From: Cycloclasticus sp. 46_120_T64
GTDB taxonomy: Bacteria; Pseudomonadota; Gammaproteobacteria; Methylococcales; Cycloclasticaceae
Assembly: GCA_002162695.1 (NCBI GenBank)
Contig: MAAM01000011.1
Span: 186,001 to 250,000, forward strand
Reading direction: 5' to 3'
Length of the DNA: 64,000 nt
Position 1 is the stretch's first letter. Each line of letters starts with the position of its first letter. This document shows positions 3,410 through 21,786 of the stretch, one piece after another. Under the pieces are notes generated by a model. The model did no database searches, had not been told where the DNA came from, and saw only the letters and a program-made list of their open reading frames with translations. The translations under genes and the position numbers were made by a program.

Positions 3410-5203
3410 ATGAGTATTAAAGATTATAAAATAACCGAACATAAGTACGACGTAGTTGTTGTCGGCGCGGGCGGTGCGGGTTTACGTGCAACGTTTGGTA
3501 TGGCTCAAAAAGGCCTCAAAACGGCGTGTATTACTAAAGTTTTCCCAACGCGTAGCCATACGGTTGCTGCTCAAGGTGGTATTAGTGCGGCCTTAGGTAA
3601 TATGGGTGAAGATGATTGGCGCTGGCATATGTATGACACCGTCAAAGGTTCAGATTGGTTGGGTGACCAAGACGCGATTGAATACATGTGTCGTGAAGCG
3701 ATCCCAGCGATTGTTGAGCTGGAGCACTACGGTGTACCATTTTCACGTACCGAAGAAGGGAAAATTTACCAACGTCCATTCGGTGGCATGACCACTAATT
3801 ACGGTGAAGGTACTGCACAACGTACGTGTGCGGCTGCTGATAGAACTGGACACGCGATTCTTCATACGCTTTACCAACAATCTTTAAAGCACGATGCTGA
3901 ATTCTTTATTGAGTATTTTGCATTAGACTTAATTATGGATGAAGACGGCGTTTGCCGTGGTGTATTAGCGCTTAAAATGGACGATGGAACCTTACATTTG
4001 TTCCGTTCACATATGGCAGTCATGGCAACCGGTGGTTACGGTCGTTCATACTTCTCTTGTACATCGGCTCATACTTGCACCGGTGACGGTAATGCGATGG
4101 TATTACGTGCTGGTTTACCGTTACAAGATATGGAGTTTGTGCAATTCCACCCAACCGGTATTTATGGTTCGGGTTGTCTCATTACTGAAGGTGTGCGTGG
4201 TGAGGGTGGTTACTTAACGAACTCTAAAGGCGAACGCTTTATGGAGCGTTATGCGCCGAATGCTAAAGACTTGGCTTCACGTGATGTTGTTAGTCGTTCT
4301 ATGACGATCGAAATTAACGAAGGCCGTGGTGTAGGTCCAGATGGTGATCATATCCATCTTCACCTTGAGCATTTAGGCCCTGAAGTTATTAACGAACGTC
4401 TACCAGGTATCGCAGAAAGCGCGAAGATTTTTGCTGGTGTTGATGTGTCTAAAGAACCTATTCCTGTATTACCAACGGTTCACTACAATATGGGTGGTAT
4501 TCCAACCAACTATAAAGGCGAAGTGGTTACCTTGAAAGACGGTGACCCAGATGCGGTTGTTTCAGGCTTAATGGCGATTGGTGAGGCGGCTTGTGTGTCT
4601 GTACATGGCGCTAATAGACTGGGTTCTAACTCCTTGCTTGATTTGGTTGTATTCGGACGCTCTGCAGCGATTAGAGCGGCAGAAGTTGTGACGCCGAGTA
4701 CTGAGCATATTGAATTAGGCGAAGCAGCTTGTGATGAAGCGTTAACGCGTTTGGATAAGTTCCGTAATGCCAATGGTTCTAAGAAAACTGCGGATATTCG
4801 TCTTGATATGCAAAAAGCGATGCAAGCTCATGCAGCGGTATTTAGAACGGGCGAATCAATGCAAGAAGGCGTTGATAAAATCACTGCGGTTCAAGAATCG
4901 TTTAAAGATGTTTCTGTTACCGATCGTTCATTAATTTGGAACACCGATTTAATTGAAACCCTAGAGCTTGATAACTTGTTGTCTCAGGCGGCGGTGACTA
5001 TTACCGGTGCGTTGAATAGAGAAGAAAGCCGTGGCGGGCATGCTCGTGAAGATTATCCGGATAGAGATGATGCTAATTGGCATAAGCACTCTATCATGTG
5101 GATTGATGAGCAAAATAAAGTCGACATCAAATATCGTCCGGTTCATATGTATACACTGACAGATGATGTGGAAGTTGTGCCGCCTAAAAAGCGTGTCTAT
5201 TAA
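3410..5203 (+). CDS. sdhA: Succinate dehydrogenase flavoprotein subunit
   Basis: 597-residue FAD-containing catalytic subunit that oxidises succinate to fumarate on the cytoplasmic face. The N-terminal dinucleotide-binding motif [11 protein letters not shown] is followed by [17 protein letters not shown], whose histidine is the covalent FAD attachment site. [23 protein letters not shown], the capping domain and the C-terminal [14 protein letters not shown] segment are all present. Length is typical. Both flavinylation and assembly helpers (SdhE and the SdhAF4-like protein) are encoded in the same operon. Confidence 0.98.
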
Positions 5204-6244: not shown

Positions 6245-6665
6245 GATAGACCTAATAAACCCCGTAACACGACATGTTGTTACGGGGTTTATTTTTTTGA
6301 GCGCGTTGATTTGTTGCTGGTCCAATAGCTTGTTACCCATTCTGAAATTCGGTTTATCTGTCGCTGTGTTATTCAGCTTCCTAGCTGGGTTTAGAAAAGG
6401 CGCTTTTTGTCACCGGGGATTACGCAGTATTGCTTGCCAGCCAGATGCTTATTGGTTGTTGTACGATACGAAGGGCTGCCGGCACGATGCGACTCTGCTG
6501 GATTCGAGTGTTATTATCGGGCCGTTTTATTTCTTAAATTTTGTTAGCCAAACTGGGCCTATTCCGCTGTTGCTGACGACGGACTCTATGTCTGTTGAGG
6601 CGGCTAGGAAGCTACGTGTTAGCTTGAAGCTGTATCGTCAGCAATTAATTGCGGCCCGGCTTTAG
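6204..6665 (+). CDS. ygfX: YgfX (CptA)-like membrane protein
   Basis: About 154 residues. The N-terminal FEIDLINPVTRHVVTGF resembles the family's opening before two transmembrane helices (about residues 25-62), and the C-terminal LLLTTDSMSVEAARKLRVSL matches the soluble domain end (E. coli has LWLAADSMDEAEWRDLRRM). The start is uncertain. The family's opening segment lies close to the sdhE stop, so I favour the ATG at 6204, giving 41 bp of overlap with sdhE; a TTG at 6297 would remove the opening segment. YgfX is the proposed partner of SdhE and has been described as affecting cell shape or flavinylation. The 3' end overlaps the converging nadB by 21 bp. Confidence 0.72.
   Translation: MSPASLKKSIPAFEIDLINPVTRHVVTGFIFLSALICCWSNSLLPILKFGLSVAVLFSFLAGFRKGAFCHRGLRSIACQPDAYWLLYDTKGCRHDATLLDSSVIIGPFYFLNFVSQTGPIPLLLTTDSMSVEAARKLRVSLKLYRQQLIAARL
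6254..6299 (+). terminator. Strong intrinsic terminator after sdhE, inside the ygfX reading frame
   Basis: A perfect 13-bp stem (AAACCCCGTAACA at 6257-6269 with its complement at 6278-6290), loop of eight bases, then seven T at 6292-6298; flanking A/T bases extend the pairing. It begins about ten bases after the sdhE stop and ends the sdh operon. It also lies within the early codons of ygfX. Confidence 0.9.
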
Positions 6666-8255
6666 TACGGTGTCCCGCTTGAAGTTTTTATCGTCCAACT
6701 CGGGGTAGTCACGGGTGTAATGCAGGCCGCGGCTTTCTTTACGGCTTAAAGCGCTATCAATAATCAACTCAGCGGTGTGAGCAAGGTTTCTCAGCTCAAG
6801 GAAATCGTTGGTGACGTGGAAATTACTGTAATAATCTTCAATTTCTTTATTGAGTAGGGTGATGCGGTTTTTTGCTCTCTGTAAACGTTTGGTTGTTCTG
6901 ACGATACCCACGTAATCCCACATGAATTGACGTAATTCGGCCCAGTTATGCGAGACCACGATGGCTTCATCGGAATTGATGACATTGCTGTCATCCCATG
7001 GGCGGATAATGGCTGTTTTTCGGTTGTCGCTTAGGTAGTTTTGTATGTGTTTGCTGGCTTGTTTAGCGAACACCAAGCACTCTAAAATTGAATTGCTGGC
7101 CATTCTGTTGGCGCCGTGTAGGCCGGTAAAAGCGGTTTCGCCAATCGCGTATAAGCCATGGATGTCGGTTGAGCCGTGTTTATCGGTTATCACTCCACCG
7201 CAAGTGTAGTGGGCGGCAGGTACCACCGGCAACGGATCCTTGGTCATATCGAAGCCGAAGTCTAAACACTTTTTATATAACATCGGAAAGTGTGACTTAG
7301 TGAATTGCGGGGTGAGGTGGCTAATGTCTAAGAAAACAGACTCTATGCCGAGGCGCTTCATTTCGTGGTCGATGGCTCTGGCGACGATGTCGCGTGGTGC
7401 TAACTCAGCGCGTTTGTCGAAACGCGGCATAAAACGTGAGCCGTCGGGGAGTAATAATAATCCACCTTCGCCTCTGACGGCTTCGCTGATCAAAAATGAT
7501 TTGGCTTGCGGGTGGTATAAGCAAGTTGGGTGGAATTGCATAAATTCCATATTAGCTACCCGACAGCCTGCTCGCCAAGCCATGGCGATACCATCGCCGG
7601 TTGATACATCAGGGTTGCTGGTATAGAGGTAGACCTTGCTAGCGCCACCGGTTGCCAAGGTGATGCAGGGGGCGCTCATGCTGAAGATGCGATCTTTTTT
7701 GGTATCTAATACATAACAGCCGATGATCTTACTGCTGCTCGAGTTAACGTCGTCTTCGGTAATTAAATCAATGACATTATGGTGCTCAAATATTTTGATA
7801 TTTCGCTGGTTGAGGACTTGCTCATTTAGCGCTGTTTGTACCGCGCGGCCTGTTGAATCATCAGCGTGCACGACGCGGCGATGAGAATGGCCGCCTTCCT
7901 TGGTCAGGTGTAGCTTGTTATTTGAGTCTGAGCTATCGTTGGTGGAAAACTGCACGTTATTACTGATTAACCAGTCGATGCTGGCCTTCCCATTGGCGAC
8001 GACTAATTCAACGGTATCCTCATGACAAAGACCGGCGCCGGCTTTGATGGTATCTTTTTTATGGGCTTCGATGCTGTCAAATTCATCCAGTACCGCAGAG
8101 ATGCCACCTTGTGCGTAAAAAGTGCTTCCTTCTGACATATTGGACTTAGAAATAATGGCTATTTGCAGTCGACTGGGTAATGAGAGGGCGAGGCCTAAAC
8201 CAGCCGCACCGCTGCCAATGATGATGACGTCGAAGGTAAAAGTATTGTCTTGCAT
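6645..8255 (-). CDS. nadB: L-aspartate oxidase
   Basis: 536-residue flavoenzyme making iminoaspartate from L-aspartate, the first step of de novo NAD synthesis. It belongs to the SdhA/FrdA flavoprotein family: VIIIGSGAAGLGLAL at the N-terminus, STFYAQGGISAVLDE, MEFMQFHPTCLYHP, EAVRGEGGLLL and the C-terminal SRKESRGLHYTRDYPE. I start it at the ATG at 8255 because the 26 extra residues of the longer frame are unlike the family and E. coli NadB has almost the same length. It is divergent from rpoE, the same neighbour as in Pseudomonas and E. coli. The 3' end overlaps ygfX by 21 bp. Confidence 0.95.
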   Translation of the reverse strand: MQDNTFTFDVIIIGSGAAGLGLALSLPSRLQIAIISKSNMSEGSTFYAQGGISAVLDEFDSIEAHKKDTIKAGAGLCHEDTVELVVANGKASIDWLISNNVQFSTNDSSDSNNKLHLTKEGGHSHRRVVHADDSTGRAVQTALNEQVLNQRNIKIFEHHNVIDLITEDDVNSSSSKIIGCYVLDTKKDRIFSMSAPCITLATGGASKVYLYTSNPDVSTGDGIAMAWRAGCRVANMEFMQFHPTCLYHPQAKSFLISEAVRGEGGLLLLPDGSRFMPRFDKRAELAPRDIVARAIDHEMKRLGIESVFLDISHLTPQFTKSHFPMLYKKCLDFGFDMTKDPLPVVPAAHYTCGGVITDKHGSTDIHGLYAIGETAFTGLHGANRMASNSILECLVFAKQASKHIQNYLSDNRKTAIIRPWDDSNVINSDEAIVVSHNWAELRQFMWDYVGIVRTTKRLQRAKNRITLLNKEIEDYYSNFHVTNDFLELRNLAHTAELIIDSALSRKESRGLHYTRDYPELDDKNFKRDTVLKPGRN

Positions 8256-8425
8256 GTTAATAATTTGAATTGATACGCTTTTAAGGGTAATAATGTAGTT
8301 TACTAACACTAAATTATACGGAATAAATATCAACTTGCCTTTTTATATTCAACAATTGAACTACTTAATGGACTCTTGGTCTTTTGAACAAGGCGAGCGG
8401 TTTATTGTGGTCAGTTTGAGGCGAT

Positions 8426-9004
8426 ATGATGACTGATTATGACGATAAGTTGTTAGTCAGTGAGGTTCAAGGTGGTAATAAGAAGGCGTTTGATATGCTT
8501 GTGCAGCGGTATCAGCAGCGTGTTGTTCAGTTGGTGGCCCGTTATGTACGCGACTCTAGTGAGGCTCAGGATGTTGCGCAAGAGGCTTTCATTAAGGCTT
8601 ATAAGGCGCTACCTAACTTCAGAGGCGAGAGTGCTTTTTACACTTGGCTTTACCGGATTGCAGTGAATACGGCAAAGAATTATTTGGTGGCTCGCGCCAG
8701 AAGGTCCTCAGGTAATGAGGTCGATGTGGCTGAAGCAGAGAATTTTTCCGGTGCGTTTAGGTTAAAGGTCTGTGATACCCCAGAGCACTTATTGCTCAGT
8801 GAGGAAATTAGAGTGACGGTTCAGCGGGCGATAGAAGGATTACCCAATGAACTTAAAATGGCGATTAGGTATCGTGAGCTTGATGGCATGACCTATGATG
8901 AAATAGCGAAAAAGATGGACTGCCCAGTCGGTACTGTCCGCTCGCGGATATTTAGGGCAAGAGAGGCGGTGGATAAGATTTTAGAGCCACTACTCGATGA
9001 ATGA
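8426..9004 (+). CDS. rpoE: RNA polymerase sigma-E factor (AlgU/RpoE type)
   Basis: 192-residue ECF sigma factor with very high resemblance to RpoE/AlgU: region 2 around FDMLVQRYQQRVVQLVARY through FRGESAFYTWLYRIAVNTAKN, and region 4 with ELDGMTYDEIAKKMDCPVGTVRSRIFRARE. It directs the envelope-stress response. A weak sigma-E-like promoter can be read upstream (TGAACTA at 8357-8363, 16 bp, TCTTT at 8380-8384), compatible with autoregulation but poor in the -10. The start has TTGAGG upstream and two consecutive ATGs. The next gene is a truncated-looking anti-sigma. Confidence 0.96.
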   Translation: MMTDYDDKLLVSEVQGGNKKAFDMLVQRYQQRVVQLVARYVRDSSEAQDVAQEAFIKAYKALPNFRGESAFYTWLYRIAVNTAKNYLVARARRSSGNEVDVAEAENFSGAFRLKVCDTPEHLLLSEEIRVTVQRAIEGLPNELKMAIRYRELDGMTYDEIAKKMDCPVGTVRSRIFRAREAVDKILEPLLDE

Positions 9005-9019
9005 TATATTGGATAAGAG

Positions 9020-9253
9020 ATGAAGGAATTATATAAAGAACAGCTGTCACAACTATTGGATGATGAGCTGGAAGGAAATAAGTTGAATGGTCTACTCGAA
9101 GAGCTTGAGAAAGATCTGAATCTGCACCTTAAACTAGATCGTTATGCGCTGATCGGCGAGGCCTTGAGTCAAAGCCTCGAATGCTCGGAGTTGTTGTTTG
9201 TGAAAGCTGGTGAAGGAGCGATTGCGCCAGCTGCTAAACAGCGAATGGCGTAG
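9020..9253 (+). CDS. Mini anti-sigma-E factor: RseA/MucA N-terminal domain only
   Basis: 77 residues. LSQLLDDELEGNKLNGLL, then RYALIGEALSQSL, match the cytoplasmic sigma-binding domain of RseA/MucA (compare the LS-x-MDxE, RYxLI pattern). The protein stops just after this domain. There is no transmembrane helix and no periplasmic domain, whereas RseA/MucA proteins are about 190-220 residues. It follows rpoE by 15 bp, as rseA should. An intrinsic terminator follows within 50 bp, and neither rseB/mucB, rseC nor mucD is present, so it is not simply a frameshift with the remainder downstream. It could be a soluble anti-sigma factor or a decayed one. Confidence 0.8.
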   Translation: MKELYKEQLSQLLDDELEGNKLNGLLEELEKDLNLHLKLDRYALIGEALSQSLECSELLFVKAGEGAIAPAAKQRMA

Positions 9254-9295
9254 ATTTATTCTGTTTGCCAAGGGCTGCTAAATTTTTTGTTGTCT

Positions 9296-9334
9296 AAAAA
9301 AAGACTGGGTTAAGCCTGACCCCCAGCCTTTTTT
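9296..9334. terminator. Intrinsic terminator, probably bidirectional
   Basis: A-tract at 9296-9302, stem GACTGGG (9303-9309) pairing with CCCAGCC (9322-9328) with one A/C mismatch, then six T at 9329-9334. It separates the anti-sigma gene from the converging suhB and has A and T tracts on both sides. Confidence 0.8.
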
Positions 9335-9349
9335 ATTTTAGAGTTTTGT

Positions 9350-10171
9350 TTATTCGCTAGTTTTTGTTTGGCCGGCACTGAGTACTTTCTGTGCATGCGG
9401 TGCAATGGTGTCTAGCAGTACACGGTGCATTTTAGGGTTGGCGCATACAATATTGCCGGTCTTGAAGTAATCGTATTCACCCTCAAAATCGCTAATAACT
9501 CCGCCTGCTTCCTGAATTAACAACATACCCGCAGCAAAATCCCACGGTTTTAAACCAATTTCAAAAAAACCATCTAATTTACCGGCGGCAACGTAGGCTA
9601 AGTCTAATGAAGCAGCGCCCGCACGTCGTACCCCTGAGGTGCGAGTGAAAATATCGCGGAAAATATCTAAGTAGGGTTCGATATTATGGTCGTTTTTAGA
9701 TGGGAAGCCGGTACCAATGAATGCACCTTCCAATTTGCGTTGACGTGCAACTCGAATACGACGGTTGTTAAGTGTTGCGCCTTTACCACGTGAGGCGGTA
9801 AATAAATCCTGCCGCACAGGGTCGTAGATAACGGCCTGTTCAATCACGTTGCTGTGTTTCAAAGCGATGGAGACAGCATAGTGTGGAAAGCCGTGCATGA
9901 AATTGCTGGTGCCGTTTAGCGGATCGATGATCCACATATATTCGGCGTCTTGGTTGGTGTAACCCGATTCTTCGGTTAATACACCGTGATCTGGGTACGC
10001 GGAGAGCAGGGTGTTGATGATTTCCTCTTCTGCGTGTTTAGCTATCTCAGTAGCATAATCATTTTGACTCTTAATAGTTATCTTAAGAGTATCAATAGAG
10101 TCCGCAGAACGTATTATAATGTCGCCTGCTTGTCTTGCTGCTCGAATAGCAATATTTAACATTGGGTGCAT
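9350..10171 (-). CDS. suhB: SuhB, inositol-monophosphatase family, with altered metal site
   Basis: 273 residues; begins MHPMLNIAIRAARQAG, almost identical to the E. coli start, and sits divergent from trmJ as in many gammaproteobacteria. SuhB is an inositol-1-phosphatase in vitro and a Nus-complex factor in rRNA antitermination. Metal-binding motifs TEESG and KPWDFAAGMLL are intact. However, the central DPLDGT motif reads DPLNGT (Asp83 kept, residue 86 is Asn encoded at 9914-9916), replacing one of the carboxylates that bind catalytic magnesium. Phosphatase activity may therefore be weak or absent while the transcription role could persist. The R..G.A.LDLAYVAAG.. segment is typical. Confidence 0.93.
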   Translation of the reverse strand: MHPMLNIAIRAARQAGDIIIRSADSIDTLKITIKSQNDYATEIAKHAEEEIINTLLSAYPDHGVLTEESGYTNQDAEYMWIIDPLNGTSNFMHGFPHYAVSIALKHSNVIEQAVIYDPVRQDLFTASRGKGATLNNRRIRVARQRKLEGAFIGTGFPSKNDHNIEPYLDIFRDIFTRTSGVRRAGAASLDLAYVAAGKLDGFFEIGLKPWDFAAGMLLIQEAGGVISDFEGEYDYFKTGNIVCANPKMHRVLLDTIAPHAQKVLSAGQTKTSE

Positions 10172-21696: not shown

Positions 21697-21786
21697 GGAG
21701 GGATGGCAGAGCGGTTGAATGCACTAGTCTTGAAAACTAGCATGGGTTAACGCCCATCCAGGGTTCGAATCCCTGTCCCTCCACCA
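21697..21786 (+). tRNA. tRNA-Ser (anticodon UGA)
   Basis: 90 nt including the encoded CCA. Acceptor GGAGGGA (21697-21703) pairs with TCCCTCC (21776-21782). The anticodon stem CTAGT/ACTAG encloses loop CTTGAAA with anticodon TGA at 21731-21733. A long variable arm (CATGGGTTAACGCCCATC region) and the T arm CAGGGTTCGAATCCCTG identify a class II serine tRNA reading UCA and related codons. Confidence 0.97.

Follow-up and report, generated by a model that had tools for sequence, protein, structure and literature searches.

A Cycloclasticus sigma-E gene followed by a 77-residue RseA without membrane and periplasmic parts at a rearranged locus

We analyzed a window of 64,000 nucleotides (positions 186,001 to 250,000 of contig MAAM01000011.1) from Cycloclasticus sp. 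46_120_T64, whose genome (G000) is a draft assembly of 2.21 Mb in 15 contigs, 99.97% complete. The ORF list contains rpoE on the forward strand (positions 8426 to 9004), the 192-aa product of which is a sigma-E factor of the RpoE/ECF02 type (NCBIfam equivalog TIGR02939, 295.9 bits versus a cutoff of 236.15). The gene directly after rpoE, with a start 15 bases after the rpoE stop, is a short rseA of 77 codons (9020 to 9253, forward strand). The neighbor upstream of rpoE, which encodes a nadB-like FAD protein (6645 to 8255, reverse strand; name and estimated start assigned by eye), is the same as in related genomes, which makes this flank of the locus ancestral. On the other side lies suhB (9350 to 10171, reverse strand), a member of the inositol monophosphatase family whose best NCBIfam match, NF008027, is below cutoff (305.9 versus 332); it is convergent with rseA, ends 96 bases past the rseA stop, and marks a rearrangement junction. 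Folding revealed a hairpin flanked by an A-run and a T-run (9293 to 9342) in this gap, a possible terminator for both convergent genes. The terminator claimed by an earlier sequence-only reading of this DNA is thus plausible but moderate, as the hairpin (−12.7 kcal/mol, z −1.76) was equaled or bettered in 15 of 200 shuffles and is absent from the list of the terminator consensus scan. The sole Rfam match above gathering score in the window is one tRNA (21697 to 21783, forward strand).

A sigma-E-type promoter-like site, GAACT-N16-GTCT, a motif that we take to be the sigma-E consensus, is located 68 bases before rpoE (8358 to 8382, forward strand). The same motif, with identical spacing, was found 68 to 74 bases upstream of 12 of 15 rpoE genes (G000 included). 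A scan of the whole window gave two matches versus a mean of 1.42 in base-shuffled windows, which is chance level, so the case for the site comes from its conserved place. This conservation suggests that sigma-E autoregulation of rpoE is probably kept in G000.

We then analyzed the RseA protein. It consists of helices 1 to 3 of the RseA_N domain and a degenerate helix-4 stretch (residues 57 to 68), with no membrane helix. The Pfam RseA_N match (E value, 1.9e-6; 28.8 bits versus a cutoff of 24) covers just positions 3 to 47 of the 87 in the profile, and the protein has no NCBIfam family at an E value of ≤0.01, the full-RseA equivalog included. With the 77-aa protein as the query, rseA was recovered in nine other genomes of the genus (10 of 21 genomes matched, its own counted; best E value, 5.6e-11), showing that the ORF is not a chance one. 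It is the sole RseA_N match in G000 at an E value of ≤1; a second RseA elsewhere in the genome was therefore rejected, and the genome search for a full-length RseA that the sequence-only reading had called for yielded none. The maximum 19-residue hydropathy is 1.04, versus 2.08 to 2.52 in 14 relatives, so the protein has no transmembrane helix and, as a consequence, no periplasmic domain, the target of the site-1 protease and RseB; in these relatives, 48 to 61 residues extend beyond the membrane helix. The pairing of sigma-E with a 77-residue anti-sigma devoid of membrane and periplasmic parts, as first read from the letters, is borne out by the TIGR02939 and RseA_N matches and by this hydropathy.

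An RseA_N match was found in 15 of the 18 genomes of the genus, G000 included, and the three without one are incomplete (73, 58, and 80%). In the comparison of gene length in close relatives, which had also been proposed, the other 14 genomes all have frames of 155 to 179 aa, so the short form is a derived state whose origin is most simply placed on the G000 lineage. A tree of RpoE (plus LepA and MucD where present) with 19 taxa, including 15 of the 18 genomes of the genus, separated the genus from four outgroups with a support of 100; inside the genus, G000 is placed with supports of 46 to 68 and sits on a rather long branch (0.24, with 0.26 for G004). A frameshift or read-through hiding the 3′ end of rseA was rejected, as no RseA-like segment occurs in any frame past the stop. 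Alignments of the 14 full-length relatives to positions 9000 to 9400 by tblastn were confined to the 77-aa frame, the three frames after the stop contain no RseA-like membrane segment by hydropathy, and read-through of the stop gives just 19 residues before the next one, with no membrane helix. The frameshift removing a downstream transmembrane segment, against which the sequence-only reading had cautioned, is thus rejected on the tblastn and hydropathy results.

The same reading had the protein ending right after the sigma-binding domain, which was too generous: the Pfam match stops well short of the profile end, and the helix-4 stretch is an outlier. In BLOSUM scores against the other members of the genus (15 genus sequences out of the 25 in alignment A2), helices 1, 2, and 3 score as the relatives do (z −0.42, −0.77, and −1.26, respectively), and the helix-4 stretch, which contains two glycines, falls outside their range (z −5.63). 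Asp14 of helix 1, the counterpart of Asp11 via alignment to PDB entry 1OR7, is conserved without exception in the 25 sequences, and the sections of PMC7406223 available to us describe Asp11 as essential in the anti-sigma. A helix-3 Tyr that is invariant in the 25 aligned sequences is also present in the 77-aa protein. The AlphaFold model has block-mean pLDDT values of 80 to 87 for residues 1 to 50 and of about 41 to 59 for residues 51 to 77, and no separate helix 4; its top matches in one Foldseek search were MucA-AlgU complexes, which were weak (E values of 0.63 to 0.78 and TM scores of 0.50 to 0.52 by query). A phmmer search of the PDB with the 77-aa protein gave nothing relevant, and a profile built from the 25 aligned RseA sequences matched 1or7_C at 9.8e-10. 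The DNA from 9190 to 9340 has no convincing match to the surroundings of rseA or suhB in relatives, and about the last 20 residues may be either RseA or junction sequence; the helix-4 stretch may thus be nonhomologous sequence gained at the junction instead of an eroded helix. In the coupling analysis of PMC7406223, pairs between helix 4 and region 2 account for 12 of the 14 top sigma/anti-sigma couplings; conservation of helix 4 inside anti-sigma groups is low. The outlying helix-4 stretch favors a weakly restrained sigma-E in G000, the second of two outcomes that the sequence-only reading had envisaged.

Evaluation of the genetic neighborhood revealed that the locus is rearranged (REARRANGEMENT), with suhB adjoining rseA and with rseC and mucD on contig C3 (L072, 1814 to 2263 and 2302 to 3702). 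NCBIfam identified these two genes (RseC, below cutoff, and a Do-type protease), and they are followed by lepA, lepB, rnc, and era (these four named by eye). The start of C3 (L072, 3 to 1433), upstream of the displaced rseC-mucD, is occupied by an unrelated VWA-like gene (named by eye) that carries a long Gln-Gln-Asp repeat. Among 15 relatives, suhB directly adjoins secF in 11; a small ORF lies between them in L093, and the neighbor is different in L079, L086, and L091 (all names by eye). RseB was not found in the G000 genome, and it is above cutoff in 6 of the 18 genomes of the genus. No remnant of RseB or of the RseA C-terminal part better than an E value of 0.1 was found in positions 1 to 2400 of C3 or past the rseA stop. 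The earlier statement that rseB, rseC, and mucD are missing is thus correct locally and, for rseB, agrees with the genome search, but does not hold for the rest of the genome for rseC and mucD. A separate disruption of the same operon was seen in G003, with full rseA and an rseB fragment on one contig (L030, about 3580 to 3730) and rseB fragments ahead of rseC-mucD on another (L073, about 6315 to 6620).

RseA is a textbook case of regulated intramembrane proteolysis, and the sequence-only reading had named cleavage by DegS and RseP as the normal control. RseP is present in G000 (C4, 143185 to 144537; 405.1 bits, above cutoff) and in all 18 genomes of the genus. A DegS/AlgW-type protease was not found in the same 18 genomes, several of which are incomplete. 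Our search with TIGR02038 (E value of ≤1e-40) gave no match above cutoff in 38 genomes; in the genus, it matched solely frames of 427 to 494 aa, the size of MucD and DegP/DegQ, and frames of 380 to 388 aa were seen in G024, G126, and G033 from the same order. In a control, one of 14 genomes, presumably E. coli, was above cutoff. A looser search with TIGR02037 (E value of ≤1e-5) detected frames of about 362 to 394 aa in the genus, matching the protease half of the model only, of which that of G000 was inspected more closely, and a partial frame of 360 aa in G013 (58% complete). The G000 frame, a 370-aa serine protease (C4, 75584; L075, 2904 to 3998), could be mistaken for DegS; it was rejected, as TIGR02038 matches the protease half only (64.2 bits versus 422.95) and, by eye, the protein lacks a PDZ domain and has a different, unrelated N-terminal region. 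A similar partial match occurs in many genomes of the genus. Since no DegS was found in 18 genomes and the RseA frame is full length in 14 of the 17 others, the textbook DegS cascade is not the rule in this genus. ClpP- and ClpX-like genes (named by eye) are located at L075, 6636 to 7277 and 7392 to 8003.

We looked into the length of RseA in other genomes. In the order, RseA_N was found in 182 of 234 genomes (149 genomes with 150 places, 32 further genomes, and G000; requested completeness of at least 90%). Frames shorter than 150 aa are rare but recurrent, occurring in nine of them (G000, G115, G194, G195, G196, G197, G226, G227, and G228), and all others have at least 155 aa; the short frame of G195 is cut by a contig start, and G196 has two copies. 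In a class-wide sample, RseA_N was found in 104 of 155 genomes, where G000 (78) and G265 (114) have short forms and the rest have at least 180. A named control of 80 loci yielded 64 RseA-like next genes, after removal of 11 loci without a following ORF and of 5 that were non-RseA by eye (L184, L187, L191, L217, and L242); 63 encode at least 176 aa, and one encodes 104 aa (L175, Methylococcales bacterium OPU3_GD_OMZ). RseP at an E value of ≤1e-30 is present in seven of the nine short-form genomes checked and was not found at this threshold in G226, G265, or the full-length comparator G025.

Soluble forms of 84, 84, and 66 aa are encoded in genus g47 (G227, G228, and G226, at L129, 5268 to 5522; L130, 3111 to 3365; and L128, 7478 to 7678), where rpoE and rseA are followed by mucD. 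Like the protein of G000, they match RseA_N, adjoin rpoE, and have no membrane segment. The dN/dS ratio between G227 and G228, the closest pair in the genus, is 0.086 for rseA (9.5 synonymous and 3.5 nonsynonymous changes), 0.062 for rpoE, and 0.060 for mucD; against G226, that of rseA is 0.17 (G227) and 0.08 (G228), with dS above 1. Purifying selection thus keeps the short RseA in this genus. The helix-4 pattern is regular in the two 84-aa forms, the AlphaFold model of the 84-aa protein has a separate helix (residues 55 to 67; pLDDT, about 67), and the 66-aa form is cut inside the helix-4 stretch. Genus g47 probably has a competent soluble anti-sigma, and its selected forms may keep the other possibility of the sequence-only reading, an alternative release mechanism, alive outside G000.

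Release by periplasmic and then intramembrane cleavage is inapplicable to the RseA of G000, as the protein lacks both a membrane and a periplasmic part, the genome has no second RseA_N match, and the relatives are full length. We propose that a rearrangement on the G000 lineage broke the ancestral rpoE-rseA-(rseB)-rseC-mucD operon within, or immediately past, the sigma-binding region of rseA, bringing the remaining stump next to suhB and stranding rseC-mucD in another part of the genome. The stump would encode a leaky, partly eroded cytosolic anti-sigma, with helices 1 to 3 still able to grip region 4 of the sigma factor and with a weakened or lost helix-4 clamp on region 2. Periplasmic and intramembrane proteases would have no substrate left on it, sigma-E would be loosely held at a level set by coexpression from its own promoter and by cytosolic turnover of the short RseA, and the proteolytic envelope signal would no longer control sigma-E through RseA. 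We favor this proposal and give it an even chance of being right; a single rearrangement behind all the changes, the strength of binding, the leakiness, and the control by turnover are what we infer in it. Against the leaky stump, helices 1 to 3 are undecayed, and the protein may therefore still be in full use; moreover, the state is known from one genome without a close strain; against a fixed junction, the neighbor of suhB also differs from secF in three relatives. Truncated MucA proteins of Pseudomonas aeruginosa point both ways in the available part of PMC3750012, where strains with such proteins, including 143+3 aa and 59 aa+35 aa, are recorded as mucoid, but an isolate with a MucA of 125+3 aa, which carries an AlgU mutation as well, is nonmucoid.

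A soluble anti-sigma of full competence would instead silence sigma-E tightly in the cytosol and release it there, e.g., through regulated ClpXP degradation. The normal scores of helices 1 to 3, the selection on the g47 forms, and the ClpP- and ClpX-like genes of G000 agree with this, as do two statements in the accessible portion of the review PMC8103513, namely that SspB/ClpXP degrades the cytosolic RseA fragment of E. coli and that soluble anti-sigmas arose through truncation of membrane ones. However, G000 has an outlying helix 4 with a low-confidence model there, the g47 form differs from it precisely at helix 4, where its pattern is regular, and a release signal was not identified, so that we consider this possibility rather unlikely for G000. 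We think it similarly improbable that the stump is an inert remnant and that sigma-E is controlled solely via its promoter and competition for core polymerase. The break inside or after the domain, the lost helix-4 pattern, and an RseA_N score that is the weakest in the genus search (27.2 bits versus 33.9 to 48.2 in relatives) would fit such a remnant, and loss of rseA from the operon is tolerated in the order, as the gene is gone from the operons of G195 and G197. On the other hand, helices 1 to 3 resemble those of relatives, the operon has kept its promoter-like site and the open frame beside rpoE, and a neutral stump, if old, would be expected to decay evenly; the G000 branch is fairly long.

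That a chimeric join or an error masks the true rseA 3′ end is very unlikely. It is true that the assembly is a draft and that rseC-mucD is near the start of C3, which opens with a simple repeat, but the rseA-suhB join is internal to a 312-kb contig, positions 9000 to 9700 contain no repeat of at least 12 bases, and rseA and suhB converge on a 96-base gap that contains a hairpin. On C3, the sequence ahead of rseC-mucD holds a different gene rather than a recognizable half of rseA, and read-through past the rseA stop, as described above, yields no membrane helix. To the leaky cytosolic anti-sigma that we favor, the competent soluble form and the inert remnant are the rivals to be taken seriously.

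The system of G000 resembles that of E. coli RseA and sigma-E (PDB entry 1OR7) in the order rpoE-rseA, the profile match to 1or7_C, and the invariant residues Asp (helix 1) and Tyr (helix 3), and it differs in the lack of a membrane helix and periplasmic part, in the degenerate helix-4 stretch, and in that neither RseB in G000 nor DegS in its genus was found. P. aeruginosa MucA-AlgU (PDB entries 6IN7 and 8Z6G) is comparable through the top, weak Foldseek matches and, in the part of the literature cited above, through MucA truncations in mucoid strains; however, those are within-species mutations, whereas the short RseA of G000 is a species-representative state beside a rearranged locus. The consulted part of PMC7406223 gives about 35% of the classified family of class I anti-sigmas as predicted soluble, about 72% of these with a zinc motif, unlike the 77-aa RseA, in which none was seen by eye. 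The parts of PMC7406223 and PMC8103513 used here do not describe soluble members of the RpoE-RseA group, and the titles and abstract openings that we found, mainly of open-access literature, describe no natural membrane-less RseA. G000 is also unlike g47, which has mucD directly after rseA, a regular helix 4 in the 84-aa forms, and purifying selection on the gene. Natural RseA forms without the membrane or periplasmic part, in lineages where no DegS was found, suggest that the sensory half is dispensable while sigma-E and the sigma-binding half persist, and short RseA forms permit a direct test of the need for the periplasmic arm. The surprise is limited by the general idea of soluble anti-sigmas arising by truncation, already published in the part of PMC8103513 cited above.

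Other types of short RseA occur outside G000 and g47. In genus g42 (the OPU3 genus), the 104-aa RseA of G194 and G196 ends 0 to 1 residues past its most hydrophobic 19-residue stretch, and its gene is followed by rseC and mucD; in G265, from another order, RseA has 112 aa and ends 8 residues past that stretch. The sole RseA of G197 is of an 88-aa type (L127, 3628 to 3894) with no adjoining rpoE, and a piece of the same type is located at a contig start in G195 (L132, 1 to 213). It is conceivable, although we hold it with more doubt than belief, that sigma-E control was rebuilt more than once in the order without periplasmic input, by a soluble RseA (G000 and g47), a stop after the membrane helix (G194 and G196, as well as G265 in the other order), or a soluble 88-aa copy away from rpoE (G197 and probably G195). 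In this reading, sigma-E would be a cytosolic switch controlled by stoichiometry or turnover and no more an envelope sensor that periplasmic proteolysis drives. The rpoE-rseC-mucD operons of G197 and G195 (L244, 8181 to 9302, and L245, 8624 to 9745) have no rseA. G196 contains, in addition to the ordinary operon, a further rpoE that is paired with an 88-aa soluble RseA beside transposase-like genes (L126, 2939 to 3802). In G115 (L131, 545 to 1045), rseA is split into frames of 80 and 75 aa, possibly by a frameshift or sequencing error.
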